The position numbers were made by a program, and so were the translations under genes. A stretch of DNA of 42,458 nt. It comes from an uncultured Bacilli bacterium (lineage in GTDB: Bacteria; Bacillota_I; Bacilli_A; ML615J-28; CAG-313). Location of the stretch: NCBI GenBank assembly GCA_947591495.1, contig CANQDG010000014.1, positions 1 to 42,458 of the forward strand, in the 5' to 3' direction. The first letter of the stretch is position 1; every line of letters starts with the position of its first letter. The notes below the pieces were generated by a model, which did not search any database, was not told where the DNA came from, and saw only the letters and a program-made list of their open reading frames with translations. Below, piece after piece: positions 6,784 to 19,973 of this stretch.

Positions 6784-7426
6784 GGAACAACCTCTTAAGA
6801 AGGGGAATAATTAATCCACCAATGCTATTACCAACAATAATAATTAAAATATCACCAAAAACAAAAGCCTCAAATCTTCTAGCAATAGTAAAATAAAACA
6901 TATCCGCAATGCAGTGCTCAAAGCCACAAATAATAAATCCAGCAATACATAAAATTAAAACTAAATATTTACCTAAAGCATTATCTAATTTTTGAAAAGC
7001 CTCAACCGCAAAATAAATCAACATGCCACAAAAAATGGCTAAAATGAGTAATTTATACCATTCATATGATAATTTGGTATCGACCATCTTACTAACAAAT
7101 GTTGGAACCTCAAAAATACTTTCTAGAATAAGTCCCATAATTAAGGCTCCAATATAATTACCAACTAAGCCTAATATAAGTTGCAACATATAGTTAGGAC
7201 CCTTTTTTAAAAAGCATTGGTCAGCTAAATAACAAATTTTACCCGTATATAAAAAGAAATTAAAATTACAAATTAAAATTAAACCAATCGGAAATAAAAA
7301 AGCAGGAAGAATTAATGAACCAGTTGCTTCACGGGTTTTAATATATAACCATCCACCAAGTGAAATAGCAACACCTGCTAAAATACCTTTTAATAAATAA
7401 TTTAAAATAAACTGTCCTTCTTTCAT
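6776..7426 (-). CDS. Formate/nitrite transporter (FNT) family channel
   Basis: 216-residue integral membrane protein with six predicted helices. The FNT signature is visible in TM5, CGFEHCIADMFYF (about 167-179), with the central histidine that gates these pentameric channels; the N-terminal GILAGVAISLGGW also matches. FNT channels move formate, nitrite, lactate or hydrosulfide. It is somewhat shorter than typical members (about 250-280) because its termini are trimmed. It lies between a cyclophilin and an alcohol dehydrogenase with no real gaps, so a fermentation end-product role (formate or a similar acid) is the likely one. Confidence 0.82.
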   Translation of the reverse strand: MKEGQFILNYLLKGILAGVAISLGGWLYIKTREATGSLILPAFLFPIGLILICNFNFFLYTGKICYLADQCFLKKGPNYMLQLILGLVGNYIGALIMGLILESIFEVPTFVSKMVDTKLSYEWYKLLILAIFCGMLIYFAVEAFQKLDNALGKYLVLILCIAGFIICGFEHCIADMFYFTIARRFEAFVFGDILIIIVGNSIGGLIIPLLKRLFHD

Positions 7427-8085: not shown

Positions 8086-8823
8086 TTAAACTATTTTTTT
8101 GATAACTTTTTTAGCTTTGCTGGAAAAATCTATATATTTTTCATAATATCGATCAATAAATGATGACAAGTTAACTTTACTATCAGATATTATTTGTAAA
8201 AATTTTTCATCTACTTTTTCTAATTTGATTAAATATAAATATTTAAAAATTTTAGTTTCATCCACATTTAACAAATAATTATGATTACTTAAGCAGTTAG
8301 CACAACACACGCCTCCAGCATCAAGTGATAACATTAAGTCACCAGAACGCTTTTGACATTTGGTACAATGATTTAAATTAGGGGCAATTCCTAATAAATA
8401 AAGTAATTTGATTTCAAAAAGATTGAGAACAACTTGTGAATAATCATACATTTCTAATATTTCTAAAATTTTTTTGACAAATTCATAGAACAATTCATGA
8501 TTATCAATATGATTACTAAAGGCTAAAACTTTTTCGATAATAACACTAGCAACTAAAGTTTTTTCATATTCAGACTTTATTTTGGTAAAATTATTGATTA
8601 TATAACCTTCTGTAAAGGTAGAAAGCGTATTGCTATTAGTCATCATAAAATCAACTTCTTGTGGAACAAGCGTATATTTTTTAGTTCCACTATTCATTTT
8701 ATTAGTTCCTCTTAACAATAAATTTACAAGTCCAGTAGGTAAAAGAATGGTAATAATTTTGGCATTATCTTTGTAATCTTTAGTTGTTAGAATAATCCCT
8801 CGGTTTTTTATAATCTGTTTCAT
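8086..8823 (-). CDS. recO: DNA repair protein RecO
   Basis: 245-residue RecO, the RecF-pathway mediator that anneals single strands and helps load RecA with RecR. It opens MKQIIKNRGIILTTKDYKDN, the typical OB-fold start (RGIVL...Y.E), and carries the Cys4 zinc site (C-x2-C near 165-168, HCTKCQ, and CxxC near 183-186, VCCANC). The start at 8823 is chosen over 8847 because the first eight residues of the longer frame are basic and unlike the family, and GAGGAAG lies 5 bases before the 8823 ATG. It overlaps yqzL by 44 bases. Confidence 0.9.
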   Translation of the reverse strand: MKQIIKNRGIILTTKDYKDNAKIITILLPTGLVNLLLRGTNKMNSGTKKYTLVPQEVDFMMTNSNTLSTFTEGYIINNFTKIKSEYEKTLVASVIIEKVLAFSNHIDNHELFYEFVKKILEILEMYDYSQVVLNLFEIKLLYLLGIAPNLNHCTKCQKRSGDLMLSLDAGGVCCANCLSNHNYLLNVDETKIFKYLYLIKLEKVDEKFLQIISDSKVNLSSFIDRYYEKYIDFSSKAKKVIKKIV

Positions 8824-8932
8824 AAGCTTCCTCTTTCTTTTTGGCAAACTTATAATTTAAATAGTCTTCTATTCGACCAGTTGTGGAAAATTTGTCCCAA
8901 TATTGTTGGACTTTACTTTTTGGCAATTTCAT
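8780..8932 (-). CDS. yqzL: YqzL-like small protein, overlapping recO
   Basis: Up to 50 residues, containing QQYWDKFSTTGRIEDYLNYK, which matches the W-x-x-FS-x-TG-x-I-x-x-YL-x-YK pattern of B. subtilis YqzL. That gene also sits between era and recO, so sequence and context agree. AAGGAG is only 2 bases from the ATG at 8932 but 8 bases from an in-frame TTG at 8926, so the real start may be the TTG (48 residues). The function of the family is unknown. The 3' end runs 44 bases into recO in another frame, which suggests coupled translation. Confidence 0.7.
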   Translation of the reverse strand: MKLPKSKVQQYWDKFSTTGRIEDYLNYKFAKKKEEAYETDYKKPRDYSNN

Positions 8933-14318: not shown

Positions 14319-15695
14319 TTATTTAGTTTTTTTATTTTTGTAAGGCTTGCGAAAAAGTTGTTGGAGCATTGCTTTAAAATTAAAAGGGATTAACGGATAT
14401 AAATAAGGGCGACCAAAACTTTTCAAAAGGGCTAAATAAATGATTAAACCTAAAATACTTGCTATAAATCCATAAATACCAAAACAAAAAACGCAAATGA
14501 TGACAACTAATTTGGCAATTTTATTGGCTAAGCTCAGTTCATAACTAGGTGTTATATACGAACCGATTGCGGAAATAGCACCCAATAAAACCACTTGTTC
14601 TGATAAAATATTCATATTGATCGCCATTTCACCTATAATAACCCCCGCAATAATTCCCATTGAAGTTGATAGAGCATTAGGAGTATGAATTGATGCCATT
14701 CTAATAAATTCAATTCCTAATTCCATCAAAATTAATTGAATAAAAATAGCACCATGATTATTATCTACTTCAAAAATTTTTCCAAAATAACTAAAATGAA
14801 ATTTTTCATATTGAAGCAACATAAACCATAATGGAACAACTAAAAAAGAAACAACGATTCCAATAAAACGAATGAAACGTAAATAAGAACCTGAAATTAA
14901 GGTTTGACGAAATTCTTCCGCATGTTGCATATGATCAAATAAAGATACCGGTCCTAACATTGCGCTAGGTGATGTATCTACCATAATTCCAAACATTCCT
15001 TGATATAAATGGGCCGCAAATGTATCAGGCCTTTCGGTATATTTAACTAAAGGATAAGGCGTATAACTATTATTAATGACTAATTCTTCTAAAGCTTTGT
15101 CACTCATCGTTAATTCATCAACTTTAATATTTTCTAACCTTTTGATTGCTTTATTTAAATATTTATGATTGACATAATCTTCTATATAAACAAGGGCTAC
15201 GATAGTTTTACTGATAGTGCCAATTGTATATTTAATTATTTTTAAATTTCCTGTCTTAATTCTTCTTCTAATTAAACCAATATTAGTAGCGATATTTTCG
15301 GTAAAGCCATCCCTACTACCTCTTACTACTTTTTCACTATCTGGTTCTTCAATTCCTCTAGTAGGATAATTTTTTACTTCACTAACAATTGCTTGACATT
15401 CATCATCCATCAAAATAGCTAAGTTCCCATTTAAAATAGCCTCATAAATTGTTTGATAATCATCTTCAACCGTTGTGCTTTCATTTAATAATATTTTAGC
15501 AAGTTCACAAGAGCCCTTATTTTGGGTAAAATGATCTAAAGTATAAATTATATCAATAATGCCTTCACTTTTGGTTAAGAAATTAAGAAAAATCACCCAA
15601 AAATGATGCGTTTCATTTTCAACTTCACGAAATGTGACATCAAAAGATTCTTGATAAGCTAAATCTTTTTTAAGTCGTTCAACAATTAAATTCAT
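14319..15695 (-). CDS. spoVAF: SpoVAF, GerA-family spore membrane protein
   Basis: 458-residue GerA/SpoVAF protein: a soluble N-terminal half with ESTTVEDDYQ-type segments and EEPDSEKVVRGSRDGFTEN (residues ~117-135), followed by several membrane helices from about 270. The EPDSE..VRG.RDGF.E motif is the hallmark of GerA A-subunits and SpoVAF. In Bacillus SpoVAF sits in the spore inner membrane and helps germination. It is the last gene of the spoVAC-D-E-F run (2-base gap after spoVAE). There is no partner gerB/gerC nearby, consistent with SpoVAF rather than a GerA receptor. Confidence 0.9.
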   Translation of the reverse strand: MNLIVERLKKDLAYQESFDVTFREVENETHHFWVIFLNFLTKSEGIIDIIYTLDHFTQNKGSCELAKILLNESTTVEDDYQTIYEAILNGNLAILMDDECQAIVSEVKNYPTRGIEEPDSEKVVRGSRDGFTENIATNIGLIRRRIKTGNLKIIKYTIGTISKTIVALVYIEDYVNHKYLNKAIKRLENIKVDELTMSDKALEELVINNSYTPYPLVKYTERPDTFAAHLYQGMFGIMVDTSPSAMLGPVSLFDHMQHAEEFRQTLISGSYLRFIRFIGIVVSFLVVPLWFMLLQYEKFHFSYFGKIFEVDNNHGAIFIQLILMELGIEFIRMASIHTPNALSTSMGIIAGVIIGEMAINMNILSEQVVLLGAISAIGSYITPSYELSLANKIAKLVVIICVFCFGIYGFIASILGLIIYLALLKSFGRPYLYPLIPFNFKAMLQQLFRKPYKNKKTK

Positions 15696-15696
15696 T

Positions 15697-16047
15697 TTAA
15701 CCTCTTGGTTTACATACTAGCGCTATTAAAAAGGAAAAAAAGATCGCTGCCGCAATTCCACTTGATGTTAAATCAAAAATACCCGTAAATATTCCTAAAT
15801 AGTTACTATTAACAGCTGCATCAACCGCCGCATGAGTTAAAGAATGACCAAAACTAGAAATTGGCAATAATGCGCCTGCTCCAGCAAAATCAACTAATTT
15901 ATCATATAAGTGAAATGCTTCAAAAATGGATCCTAATACAACAAAAATAACAACAATATGAGCAGGTAATAATTTAAAACAATCTAAAATTAATTGAGCA
16001 ATCAAACAAATTAAACCACCTATTAAAAAAGCATTTAAAAAAATCAT
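15697..16047 (-). CDS. spoVAE: SpoVAE (SpoVAEb), DPA channel component
   Basis: 116-residue membrane protein with about four helices, homologous to SpoVAC. It contains FAGAGALLPISSFGHSLTHAA, whose core (GAGALLPISSFGHSL) is the family signature. It is part of the SpoVA complex that moves Ca2+-dipicolinic acid across the spore inner membrane. The start ATG overlaps the spoVAD TGA, and AAAGGAG lies just before it, inside the end of spoVAD. Confidence 0.92.
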   Translation of the reverse strand: MIFLNAFLIGGLICLIAQLILDCFKLLPAHIVVIFVVLGSIFEAFHLYDKLVDFAGAGALLPISSFGHSLTHAAVDAAVNSNYLGIFTGIFDLTSSGIAAAIFFSFLIALVCKPRG

Positions 16048-17054
16048 ACATTACTCCTTTCAAAAACAATAGCATGAGCAATAGCAGGAATCGTTTCGTT
16101 TTGAGCAACCATAATGGGGTTCATTAAAGCACCGGTTGCAATTAGCAAAACTTTTTGATAAATTCCTTTACGCATAGCATCAATTACATAACTAAAACCT
16201 ACTAAAGTAATGCATCCACATCCACTTCCCCCCGCAAAAACTTTTTGACTTTTCGTATCATAAAGCATTAAACCCGCATCATTGTAATTATTTCCTAGAG
16301 GACAGTCAAATTCAGCCATAATACCTTTTAAGACATCGGCGCCATACATTGATAAATCTCCCGTTAAGATTAAATCATATTCAGAAGGTTTTATTTTAAA
16401 GTCTTCTAAATGTTGTCTTAACGTAGAAGCTGCAGCCGGTGCCATTGTTCTACCCATATCTTGCGTATCAGAAAGTTCGGGATCAACAACTGAACCAATT
16501 GTCATTTTTGTAATTTTAATTGTTGAGGCAGAACGTGAAACAATAGCCGATCCTGCTCCGGTTGCGGTAGAAGTCATTGAATTAGGTTTTTGTCCGCCAT
16601 ATTCTGTTGGATAACGAAATTGTCTTTCACTTGTCGAATTATGACTTGAAGTAACCGTTAAAATATTTTCTCCAAAGCCTGCATCAATATAACTTGCGGC
16701 AATAATCAACGATTCAACACAAGTTGAACAGGCCCCATACACCCCTAAATAAGGCACATGATAATCTCGCATTGCATAATTAGTAACTGCTAATTGATTG
16801 TTAAGATCTCCCCCAATGATTAAATTAATATTGTCAATCTCCAACCCACTTTTGACTAATGCTGTATCAATTGCATTTTGTTGCATTTTTATTTCAGCTT
16901 GTTCCCAGTTTTCCGCATTGCAATGATTATCACTATAACTATAATCAAAATATTGTCCTAGTGGTCCTTTTTTTTCTTTTGGTCCTGATATAGTTGAGGC
17001 AGCTCTTAAATAAACATTTTTAAATTCTGCACTATTTTTACCGACATATTTCAT
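16044..17054 (-). CDS. spoVAD: SpoVAD, DPA-binding stage V sporulation protein
   Basis: 336-residue thiolase-fold protein that binds dipicolinic acid on the outer face of the spore inner membrane. Family features: YVGVKNSAEFKNVYLRAAST-type opening (here YVGKNSAEFKNVYLRAAST), GVYGACSTCVESL at the thiolase-like site, TSSHNSTSERQFRYPTEYG and GDLSMYGADV. Length matches B. subtilis SpoVAD (338). It starts 4 bases after spoVAC. It ends in TGA. Confidence 0.95.
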   Translation of the reverse strand: MKYVGKNSAEFKNVYLRAASTISGPKEKKGPLGQYFDYSYSDNHCNAENWEQAEIKMQQNAIDTALVKSGLEIDNINLIIGGDLNNQLAVTNYAMRDYHVPYLGVYGACSTCVESLIIAASYIDAGFGENILTVTSSHNSTSERQFRYPTEYGGQKPNSMTSTATGAGSAIVSRSASTIKITKMTIGSVVDPELSDTQDMGRTMAPAAASTLRQHLEDFKIKPSEYDLILTGDLSMYGADVLKGIMAEFDCPLGNNYNDAGLMLYDTKSQKVFAGGSGCGCITLVGFSYVIDAMRKGIYQKVLLIATGALMNPIMVAQNETIPAIAHAIVFERSNV

Positions 17055-17058
17055 TTTA

Positions 17059-17493
17059 TCACCTAAATAAATAAATTATTGTACCAGTAATAAAAGCACT
17101 AACAACCCCAGCCACAATCACAGCTCCAGCTAATTTAAACATATTTGTCATAATGCCTAGAATGATTCCTTCACTTTTACTTTCTAAAGCTGATGATGCC
17201 ATCGAATTAGAAAAACCCGTAATTGGAATAATCGTACCAGCTCCTGAAAATTGACCAATCTTATCAAAGATACCAAGACCAGTTAAAATCGCTGTTACTC
17301 CCACAATAACAATATACATTAAACTAGTTGAAGCAGTTTTTTCAAGATGTAACAAATCTTTAAAAAGCCAAAGAATGGTTTGAGCTATTAAACATATTAA
17401 GCCACCTACAACAAAAGCTTTGATGGCATTTAAAAATATTGGTCTTTTTATTTTTTTCTCGTTTAAGACTTTTTTATAAATTTCTTTTTCCAT
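17059..17493 (-). CDS. spoVAC: SpoVAC, mechanosensitive DPA channel
   Basis: 144-residue membrane protein with four or five helices. FSGAGTIIPITGFSNSMAS is the SpoVAC/SpoVAE signature. The short basic N-terminus (residues 1-22) precedes the first helix. In Bacillus SpoVAC opens under membrane tension to release Ca-DPA. It is the first gene of the spoVA block here; spoVAA and spoVAB are absent, as in clostridia. It is separated from the upstream sigma remnant by a terminator and has a promoter of its own, so the spoVA genes are transcribed independently. Confidence 0.93.
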   Translation of the reverse strand: MEKEIYKKVLNEKKIKRPIFLNAIKAFVVGGLICLIAQTILWLFKDLLHLEKTASTSLMYIVIVGVTAILTGLGIFDKIGQFSGAGTIIPITGFSNSMASSALESKSEGIILGIMTNMFKLAGAVIVAGVVSAFITGTIIYLFR

Positions 17494-17516
17494 AATTATC
17501 TATCCTTTCAAAAATA

Positions 17517-17545
17517 TTATTAGTATTTTTTTCCAATATATACAA
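17517..17545 (-). promoter_or_regulatory. Candidate promoter of the spoVA genes
   Basis: Minus strand TTGTAT (17540-17545), 17-base spacer, TAATAA (17517-17522), just after the terminator. The same stretch holds GTATA followed about 14 bases later by an ACTAATA-like box, a loose fit to forespore sigma-F/G promoters. Which polymerase reads it cannot be told by eye. Confidence 0.4.
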
Positions 17546-17569
17546 AAAAAGTGAAATTTTCATTTCACT
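17543..17569 (-). terminator. Terminator between the sigF remnant and spoVAC
   Basis: Minus strand GTGAAA (complement of 17563-17568), 6-base loop, TTTCAC, then T7. It starts 3 bases after the TGA of the truncated sigma gene. Confidence 0.8.
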
Positions 17570-17571
17570 CA

Positions 17572-17868
17572 TCATTTTTTAACTATTTTTAAATGCTCTT
17601 CCTTTTCACTTATCGATATTTTATCAATTGTTAAACTTTTAAGTTTATTTTTCATATCTACAATAATAAATTTAACCGCGAATTTTGCAAAACTCTTATT
17701 AAGTTTCATATCAAATTGTCTAATAGCTTTATAAAGTCCTTTAAACCCTACATTGATTAATTCATCATACACCTTAGCATCTTGAGTAAATCGCCTGGCT
17801 AAAATATAGATTAAATCCACATTTTCATTAAGAATATATTCATAACAATTAAAATTGTATCTATTCAC
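17572..17868 (-). CDS. sigF: Truncated sigma-F-like protein, region 2 only
   Basis: 98 residues in the exact place of sigF after spoIIAB. Residues 12-75 align with sigma region 2: NENVDLIYILARRF, DELINVGFKGLYKAIRQFD (the D-L-x-x-x-G-x-x-GL-x-x-A-x-x-x-FD core) and FAKFAVKFIIVDMKNKL. Sporulation sigma factors are about 230-260 residues, and here regions 3 and 4 are missing. Neither remains in other frames downstream; a terminator follows the stop at once. The start is GTG at 17868 inside the spoIIAB stop, without a clear ribosome site, so it depends on coupled translation. It keeps core-polymerase binding and part of the -10 reading surface at most. It may be a decayed gene or a repurposed fragment. 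Confidence 0.75.
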   Translation of the reverse strand: MNRYNFNCYEYILNENVDLIYILARRFTQDAKVYDELINVGFKGLYKAIRQFDMKLNKSFAKFAVKFIIVDMKNKLKSLTIDKISISEKEEHLKIVKK

Positions 17869-18283
17869 TGTATTTTTTCACCATTAAGACTCTTGTACCT
17901 TCATTGACTTTTGATTCAACATCTAGCCTATCTGTAAAAACATCCATAATGGTAAAGCCAAGACCAGCTCTTTCTTCTTCTACCTTAGTTGAAAAGAGAG
18001 GTTCTTTAGCTTTTTCGACATCTTCAATTCCAATTCCATTATCGATTACTTCAATGTAAATATTTACAGCATCATAGGATAAATTCATTTGGACAAATTT
18101 GTTTTCATTTGATAAACAGCCATGAACAATTGCATTAGTAACAGCTTCCGAGATTACCGTCTTAACCTCATTGATGAAATTAAGTTGTAAATCAAGACCC
18201 ATTAAAAAACCTACACCAATGGTTCTTGCCAACATAACATTTTCAATTTTAGCTAAAAAACTTGTTTTTATTTCATTATACAT
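17861..18283 (-). CDS. spoIIAB: SpoIIAB, anti-sigma-F factor and serine kinase
   Basis: 140-residue GHKL (Bergerat) kinase that binds sigma-F and phosphorylates SpoIIAA. The N box is SEAVTNAIVHG (E46, T49 and N50 as in B. subtilis), G1 is DNGIGI, and G2 is GLGFTIM. Arg20, which contacts sigma-F in the Bacillus structures, is also conserved. I use the ATG at 18283 because GGAGGT is 6 bases upstream; the ORF extension to 18337 overlaps spoIIAA. The stop of spoIIAA and this start share one base. The gene appears fully functional although its sigma target is truncated. Confidence 0.95.
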   Translation of the reverse strand: MYNEIKTSFLAKIENVMLARTIGVGFLMGLDLQLNFINEVKTVISEAVTNAIVHGCLSNENKFVQMNLSYDAVNIYIEVIDNGIGIEDVEKAKEPLFSTKVEEERAGLGFTIMDVFTDRLDVESKVNEGTRVLMVKKYSE

Positions 18284-18633
18284 TATGCCACCTCCAACAT
18301 TTTTTCTGCTTCTTTTTCCGTTGAAGCAACACCACATATTTTTTTTAAGCCTGATAAATTAAAAATTCTTTCAATTAAACGATTCATTGAACAAACAATA
18401 ATTTTACCATTTTTACGTTTTAACTCCGAATACCTACCTATGATAAAACCTACACCACTACTATCCATAAAATTAAGATTTTCAAAATTAAATATTAAAT
18501 ATTTAATTTCATATTTATCAATGACCTCACTAATTCTAATTTTCAGTTTTTCAGTTACTGCTTGATCTAATTCACCTTTTAGCCGCACAAATAACATATT
18601 TTTTCTAATTGACATCTGGATATTTACCGCCAT
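18283..18633 (-). CDS. spoIIAA: SpoIIAA, anti-anti-sigma factor
   Basis: 116-residue STAS-domain protein. The phosphorylation motif MDSSGVGFIIGRY carries Ser58 in the same position as B. subtilis SpoIIAA. Unphosphorylated SpoIIAA frees sigma-F from SpoIIAB. A strong GAGGGGGT ribosome site and a sigma-A-like promoter lie upstream. It is the first gene of the spoIIA unit. Confidence 0.95.
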   Translation of the reverse strand: MAVNIQMSIRKNMLFVRLKGELDQAVTEKLKIRISEVIDKYEIKYLIFNFENLNFMDSSGVGFIIGRYSELKRKNGKIIVCSMNRLIERIFNLSGLKKICGVASTEKEAEKMLEVA

Positions 18634-18812: not shown

Positions 18813-19973
18813 TTATAAAATATTTTCAAAAATACTTCCTAAAAGTTCAAGGAAATTACTTTTTTTAAGTTTTTCTTTTAATTCTAAATCAAATGATTTA
18901 TAAAGCTTACTATCAATATAAACATATATTTTACCGATTATTTTTTCATCATTGTTGCTTAATTTATCTTTATCAATTTCAACTTGATATGTTACTATGC
19001 CACCAGTCGCTTTTTTCTTAATCATTCTTGCAATATCTTGAGATAAAACTATATTATAAACCGAAGGATTCATAAGCATATCCTCTTCGGTTTTAACAAT
19101 TGAACCCTTAGGACTTATAATTTGCTTTTCAAAGTTAGCAAAAACATAATTCATCAAATTAACCGTATCGGTATTTCTTCCTTCAATGGTTGGGGCACCC
19201 ATTACCGCTGTAATGATGCGCATGCCATTAGCTTTTTTGGTTGCCACAAGACAGTAACCGGCTTGATTAGTCCATCCTGTTTTTAAGCCATCTATTCCAC
19301 TACCATTTTTGATTAATTTATTCGTATTAACAAGCCAAAAAGGTTTATTTGTATCTTTCCGTAAATAGTCTTCATATGTCGAAGTAAGGGGAATAATTTC
19401 ATCTTCATAATTTAATAATAATTCTCTTGCAATAATTCCTAAATCATGGGCACTACTTACATGCGAATCATTATGTAAACCAGTAGCATTCACATAATGG
19501 GTTTGGTTCATATTTAAGCGCCTTGCTTCTTCGTTCATTTTATTAACAAATTGTTCTTCACTACCTGCAATTCCTTCTGCCAGCACAACGGCCGCATCGT
19601 TCGCTGAAGCAATTATAACGGCTTTCAATAAGTCATCAACTGTCATTTGTTCATCAGGTGCTAAAAAAATTTGACTTCCGCCCATTGATGAGGCATATTC
19701 GGAGGTAGTTAATAGTTGATCATGTTTTAAAGTTCCATCATTTAAAGCATCCATTACAAGTTTAATTGTCATTACTTTAGTTGTACTAGCAGGGAAATGC
19801 GTTTCTTCACTATGATAATCGTATAAAATATCACCCGTATCTACTTCAAGGGCAATCGCCGAATCAACATTTTTTATTAAGTTATCTTCCGCCTTAATTT
19901 TATTAATACTTAATAAAGAAATAATTATACCAAAAAAACCACATATTAATAATAGTTTACCTATTCTTTTCAT
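18813..19973 (-). CDS. dacF: D-alanyl-D-alanine carboxypeptidase (DacF-type)
   Basis: 386-residue class C low-molecular-weight penicillin-binding protein that trims the terminal D-Ala from peptidoglycan. An N-terminal signal segment (residues 3-27) is followed by the active-site motifs STTK (PASTTKVMT, about 63), SAN (IIASANDAAVVLAEG, about 117) and KTG (GIDGLKTGWTNQAG, about 231), then the C-terminal beta domain and an amphipathic end that can tether it to the membrane. In Bacillus dacF also lies directly upstream of spoIIAA, so the order is conserved. GGTGAT precedes the ATG. Confidence 0.92.
   Translation of the reverse strand: MKRIGKLLLICGFFGIIISLLSINKIKAEDNLIKNVDSAIALEVDTGDILYDYHSEETHFPASTTKVMTIKLVMDALNDGTLKHDQLLTTSEYASSMGGSQIFLAPDEQMTVDDLLKAVIIASANDAAVVLAEGIAGSEEQFVNKMNEEARRLNMNQTHYVNATGLHNDSHVSSAHDLGIIARELLLNYEDEIIPLTSTYEDYLRKDTNKPFWLVNTNKLIKNGSGIDGLKTGWTNQAGYCLVATKKANGMRIITAVMGAPTIEGRNTDTVNLMNYVFANFEKQIISPKGSIVKTEEDMLMNPSVYNIVLSQDIARMIKKKATGGIVTYQVEIDKDKLSNNDEKIIGKIYVYIDSKLYKSFDLELKEKLKKSNFLELLGSIFENIL

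Follow-up and report, generated by a model that had tools for sequence, protein, structure and literature searches.

The gene that occupies the sigF position in an uncultured Bacilli bacterium encodes a 98-residue protein that descends from SigF and is probably no longer a sigma factor. The gene lies in a 42,458-nucleotide stretch of contig CANQDG010000014.1, hereafter the window. Only sigma region 2 is left, and this truncation, shared by three species of one genus, is real and clade-specific, not an assembly error. We put it at a little under an even chance that SigG is the only forespore sigma under SpoIIE-SpoIIAA-SpoIIAB in these species, with the SigF remnant being a repurposed sigma-2 fold and probably not a sigma.

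The remnant sits in the expected place for SigF, as the third gene of spoIIA, between spoIIAB and spoVA. All genes of the region are on the minus strand. The order begins with a D-alanyl-D-alanine carboxypeptidase ORF (18813..19973) in the DacF position upstream of spoIIA, its family assigned by eye from the sequence. There follow spoIIAA (18283..18633), encoding an anti-anti-sigma factor with a STAS domain (TIGR02886, 114.4 bits, just below the cut-off of 114.75), spoIIAB (17861..18280), encoding the anti-sigma-F kinase (TIGR01925, 155 bits, over cut-off), and the remnant itself (17572..17868), which starts at a GTG codon and overlaps the stop end of spoIIAB by 8 bp. Downstream are spoVAC (17059..17493; PF03862; TIGR02838, 161 bits vs a cut-off of 164), spoVAD (16044..17054; PF07451), spoVAE (15697..16047; TIGR02839, over cut-off), and a gene for a GerA/SpoVAF-type spore germination protein (14319..15695; PF03323).

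Profile matches and structure prediction both place the remnant within sigma region 2. The only Pfam domain in the 98 residues is Sigma70_r2 (PF04542; residues 14-77, 31.4 bits vs a cut-off of 24). The SigF equivalog model TIGR02885 reaches 45 bits, below its cut-off of 321, with positions 12-101 of its 231 aligned. The best NCBIfam matches are the SigB, SigF, and SigG models, of which only the first 90-100 positions are aligned, and the best PDB sequence match is 1L0O chain C, the sigma-F of the SpoIIAB complex. A single-sequence AlphaFold model has three helices (mean pLDDT 73.7, moderate confidence), and Foldseek ranks sigma-2 domains highest against it, at weak E-values (8.6e-3 at best). 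Neither Pfam nor NCBIfam gave a match to regions 3 and 4 in the remnant, and only 78 bp are left before the start of spoVAC. The stop codon (TGA, 17572-17574) is followed 2 bases on by the hairpin of an intrinsic terminator (17543..17569, minus strand; hairpin 17550-17569, stem AGTGAAAT-GAAA-ATTTCACT, plus a T run). Since this terminator comes at once after the stop and is followed by a separate spoVA promoter, regions 3 and 4 could not fit in between. A first-pass annotation of the same DNA had described a 98-codon gene with region 2 alone, regions 3 and 4 deleted, and a terminator just after the stop; all of this is borne out.

The truncation is common to three of the five species of the genus. 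The window's genome is a draft of 1.51 Mb in 48 contigs with 95% completeness, and all relatives are draft MAGs. Besides the window's own 98-residue protein, we found region-2-only SigF in G003 (79 aa) and G004 (101 aa). In each of the three, the short gene lies between the same neighbors, spoIIAB and spoVAC, on one contig. An AGTGAAA/TTTCACT terminator is similar in all three and different in G001. The derived residues FAKFA and GF[KR]GL are also common to the three proteins. In a tree of SpoIIAA, SpoIIAB, and SpoVAC, the three species group together with modest support (UFboot 74). The simplest reading is that a single truncation event lies behind all three.

Beyond these species, the SigF proteins covered here are longer. 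The two remaining species of the genus, G001 and G002, have SigF proteins of 169 and 174 aa, respectively, made up of region 2, a short linker, and an HTH region 4, with little of region 3. These two proteins (loci L050 and L051, ORFs at 1910) occupy the SigF slot and resemble ECF sigmas in layout. All three regions are present in the other SigF proteins examined from the family and order, whose lengths are about 187-222 aa. Among the stronger matches listed from a region-2 profile search of 395 Bacilli genomes, there was no other open frame shorter than 170 aa. Across ~70 named Firmicutes loci, the shortest ORF in the SigF position is 186 aa, bar one frame running off its contig. The first-pass annotation had held that a full-length sigF at this locus in close relatives would speak against its reading; the opposite is seen, as the relatives have the truncation too. 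This clade is unexpected, because in 2012 sigF was listed among the genes that every spore-forming bacillus and clostridium examined had in common (PMC3533761). A literature search on truncated or lost sigF gave a single match, which concerned Streptomyces SigB homologues.

The SigF remnant is, by its sequence and predicted model, a folded domain with an altered sigma surface, not a shortened working sigma. We compared the three short SigF proteins with 16 longer SigF proteins of the order and class. The packing residues G41, G44, L45, A48, A64, and I68 are present in all three short proteins. By contrast, D33, D36, S61-T62-Y63 (replaced by A-K-F), G70, E71, and E75 are lost in all three, and Q39 is retained in only one. 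From sigma-70 anatomy, we take D36 and Q39 to align with the RNA polymerase contacts of region 2.2, S61-T62-Y63 to correspond to the melting region 2.3, and G70-E75 to lie in the -10-reading helix 2.4. Thus, the conserved polymerase-contact, melting, and -10-reading residues that mark region 2 of a SigF are mostly missing. A kept fold with degenerate core and promoter contacts is instead what a sigma mimic is expected to have, and the remnant has this pattern at the level of its sequence and a moderate-confidence model.

The SigF remnant is under purifying selection, although this selection is weak. It has stayed free of stops over 78 codons in three species, with length differences at the termini only, while amino acid identity among the species has fallen to 40-48%. 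In neutral drift simulated from each sequence to a distance of 0.45, 79 codons stay stop-free in only 0.7-1.9% of runs per lineage. A three-taxon codon likelihood analysis of codons 12-78 rejected omega=1 (LRT 33.6, p=7e-9, branch cap 1.0), and the rejection held across increasing branch caps (p=0.003, 7e-9, and 8e-13). Capped fits were used because dS is saturated and a free-branch fit gave unreal branch lengths. For the same reason, the omega estimate of 0.2-0.6 is rough, pairwise dN/dS was set aside, and we relied on the likelihood-ratio test only. The first-pass annotation had also asked whether region 2 drifts neutrally, with random stops in relatives. Instead, we find open frames and a departure from neutrality; the gene shows neither the neutral evolution nor the stops and frameshifts in relatives of a pseudogene.

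The strongest rival to our reading is that the SigF remnant is a non-functional relic in slow decay, since it evolves fast. Its dN is about 0.4-0.55 vs 0.1 for the neighboring genes, or ~4-5 times higher. SigF would have become dispensable, with sporulation weakened or being lost, and the frame would be open by chance, through its overlap with spoIIAB, or because the truncation is recent. The loss of functional surface residues agrees with such decay, as does the repeated loss of sporulation in reduced Bacilli orders (PMC10868615). Decay accounts poorly, however, for three stop-free frames that differ only at their ends, for the rejection of omega=1, and for structural residues selectively kept alongside FAKFA and GF[KR]GL. 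It is also at odds with a remaining sporulation set that is intact. We therefore regard a relic as unlikely, while a serious contender.

The gene inventory of the short-SigF species suggests that spore formation has not been lost. Spo0A is above cut-off in all five species of the genus. Open genes are present for SpoIIE-like ORFs of 745-750 aa, SpoIIR, SpoIIGA-SigE-SigG, SigK, a sigma in the SigH position, a GerE-type regulator, and spoVA, and all other sigmas in the genome are intact, longer ORFs. SpoIIE and SpoIIR fall below curated cut-offs across the family, including in species with a full SigF. An ongoing loss of sporulation at the first step, which the first-pass annotation had proposed as one option, fits poorly with an intact set of cascade ORFs and with a truncation common to three diverged species, which is not decay in one. 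Reduced Bacilli orders of this kind have been described as either sporulating with a thin gene set or transitional (Field et al., PMC10868615), so actual spore formation in these species is putative.

Early forespore promoters in the short-SigF species keep their -35 boxes. In the window, the spoVA promoter has a -35-like element GTATA (17539..17543, minus strand) and, 17 bp away, a -10-like element AATAATA (17515..17521, minus strand). Upstream of spoVA, the three short-SigF species have GTATA-N17-AATANTA, while G001 has GCATA-N17-CATACTA. Upstream of spoIIR, we found GTATA-N17/18-[CA]ANAATA or CATATTA in eight genomes, including the three short-SigF species, and upstream of sigG, [AG]CATA-N18-CATANTT in 5/5 species of the genus. 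At all three promoters, the short-SigF species thus retain the -35 box and a spacing of 17-18 bp, in patterns that were chosen after viewing the sequences and that arise in shuffles with a probability of 0.1-6% per match. A retained -35 box implies the need for a sigma with region 4. We also observed that the first base of the -10 in the spoIIR and spoVA promoters is A in the three short-SigF species (AATANTA, AACAATA) and C in relatives (CATANTA, CANAATA). This substitution is possibly a shift in forespore promoter specificity.

A sigma split into two subunits could explain why the -35 boxes are kept. Under this alternative, the SigF remnant would supply region 2 and a separate protein regions 3 and 4, as RsoA (region 2) and SigO do in B. 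subtilis (PMC8103513). Such an arrangement is improbable here, given that the -10-reading residues of the remnant are lost and that we found no orphan region-4 or SigF-type region 3/4 protein in the three species. Neither PF04545 nor a SigF C-terminal profile detected an orphan partner in five draft genomes, where a fast-diverging partner could escape such profiles. The region-4 candidates were all SigE, SigG, SigK, ECF, YlxM-like, or other HTH proteins. The only small HTH candidate, of 69-78 aa, was rejected, as it is LuxR/GerE-type and present in all five species, including those whose SigF has region 4.

A minimal one-domain sigma, reading the -10 alone like a cut-down T4 gp55, fits the residue losses least of the alternatives. 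This option, also raised in the first-pass annotation, has in its favor that region 2 is the domain that binds RNA polymerase and the -10 and that its fold is predicted to be intact. Against it stand the changes at the polymerase contact (D36, and Q39 in part), in melting (STY to AKF), and in -10 reading (G70, E71, E75), together with the -35 elements retained at the spoIIR, sigG, and spoVA promoters. We consider it very improbable. Finally, a normal sigF cut short in assembly or binning can be dismissed as an explanation: the relatives are all draft MAGs, but the assemblies of three species agree on the gene and its terminator and place both on a single contig with spoIIAB and spoVAC on either side.

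The SpoIIAA/SpoIIAB switch is strongly conserved in the species with short SigF. Counting along the translations bears out that SpoIIAA keeps Ser58 and that SpoIIAB keeps Arg20, Glu46, Thr49, and Asn50, as the first-pass annotation had reported. Among the three species, identity is 83-87% for SpoIIAB and 78-84% for SpoIIAA. The earlier proposal that the switch is still under selection for another target gains from this conservation, and another target is the simplest reading of it. Arg20 is invariant in 15/15 aligned SpoIIAB sequences. Because this residue may also serve in binding SpoIIAA, and be conserved for that reason, it does not point to SigG specifically. SpoIIAB is not wholly static and has the genus-specific changes F18L and Y56C. 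Position 56 is Cys in four aligned sequences of the genus (and in G002) and Tyr in 11/11 other SpoIIAB proteins. At a separate locus (L240; G000:C4:36000-50000), RsbW/HATPase-type ORFs (6845-7261 and 8301-8834) lie within a cluster of NADH-dehydrogenase/hydrogenase-type subunits and a PHP-like protein. Similar pairs occur in several relatives, some of which have no SpoIIAB match above cut-off.

SigG is the natural candidate to read the early forespore promoters, since it is full length and its gene, which follows spoIIGA-sigE, has a forespore-type promoter of its own. Sigma-G is a further target of SpoIIAB inhibition in B. subtilis, where SpoIIAB has the leading role in the mother cell, and a sigG E156K mutant is refractory (PMC3174212, PMC4383634). 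We found that the residue equivalent to E156 is D, and thus acidic, in SigG from all five species of the genus. This position was placed with a presumed B. subtilis SigG sequence, which agrees with the papers' numbering of N45, F91, and Y94. The acid, which is also present in relatives with a full SigF, would permit a takeover by SigG but does not show it. N45 of B. subtilis SigG has been described as a residue that CsfB binding requires and that does not vary among SigG orthologues. At this position, SigG of the order has E, H, Y, L, or I and never N. Gin/CsfB absence was dropped as support for SigG release, because PF10764 failed to match the B. subtilis control.

The family seems to lack the SpoIIIA channel, which acts in late activation and separates the SigF and SigG phases, delaying SigG in Bacillus. 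Of its 15 genomes searched, the 10 of good quality gave no SpoIIIAE match (B. subtilis control positive), and one poor genome gave a 17-bit partial match. Together, the conserved SpoIIAB, the acid at the SigG E156 site, and the apparent absence of SpoIIIA make a single-forespore-sigma program possible, but unproven.

We propose that region 3 of SigF was lost or reduced in the genus and that the clade formed by the window's species and the two grouped with it lost region 4 as well. SpoIIAB is said to grip sigma-F by region 3. The early forespore promoters would most likely be read by full-length SigG of spoIIGA-sigE-sigG, and the SpoIIE-SpoIIAA-SpoIIAB switch would most likely hold and release SigG in place of SigF. 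The remnant, with its sigma-2 core and translational overlap with spoIIAB apparently kept under weak selection, might bind SpoIIAB or RNA polymerase as a sigma mimic or modulator. That both halves hold, with SigF turned into a one-domain sigma-2 mimic overlapping its anti-sigma gene and its paralogue SigG the sole forespore sigma under SpoIIE-SpoIIAA-SpoIIAB, is a doubtful, if possible, combination. Neither a SigG takeover nor a repurposed sigma-2 domain was among the readings of the first-pass annotation.

If the proposal is true, a single forespore sigma under SpoIIE-SpoIIAA-SpoIIAB control is enough for endospore formation. With SigF dismantled but the switch and the cascade kept, such a clade would offer a natural test of the reason for having two forespore sigmas and of what SpoIIAB grips. 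The close relatives form a series, from regions 2-3-4 to 2-4 to 2, that is testable in vitro.

The SigF remnant resembles several known systems without matching any. It shares with sigma-F (SpoIIAC/SigF, TIGR02885) its slot between spoIIAB and spoVA, its descent, and 1L0O chain C as best PDB match; however, it is without regions 3 and 4, has mostly lost the polymerase, melting, and -10 surface, and scores 45 bits, under the cut-off of 321. Like RsoA of the B. subtilis RsoA/SigO pair, it is a small protein with a single sigma region 2, but it lies in spoIIA, with no SigO-like gene adjoining and no region-4 partner found. Control of sigma-G by SpoIIAB in B. subtilis involves two proteins that these species also have, SpoIIAB and a full-length SigG whose E156 site is acidic; in B. 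subtilis, however, the main target of SpoIIAB is a full-length SigF, and none is left here. With the sigma-like domain of alphaproteobacterial PhyR, the remnant shares a sigma-like fold whose core and promoter contacts are degenerate, beside an anti-sigma system (PMC8103513). In PhyR, however, the module is ECF-like, has two domains, and is fused to a receiver, and SpoIIAB binding by the remnant is putative. By analogy with PhyR, a repurposed sigma mimic would fit both the residue pattern of the remnant and its overlap with spoIIAB.
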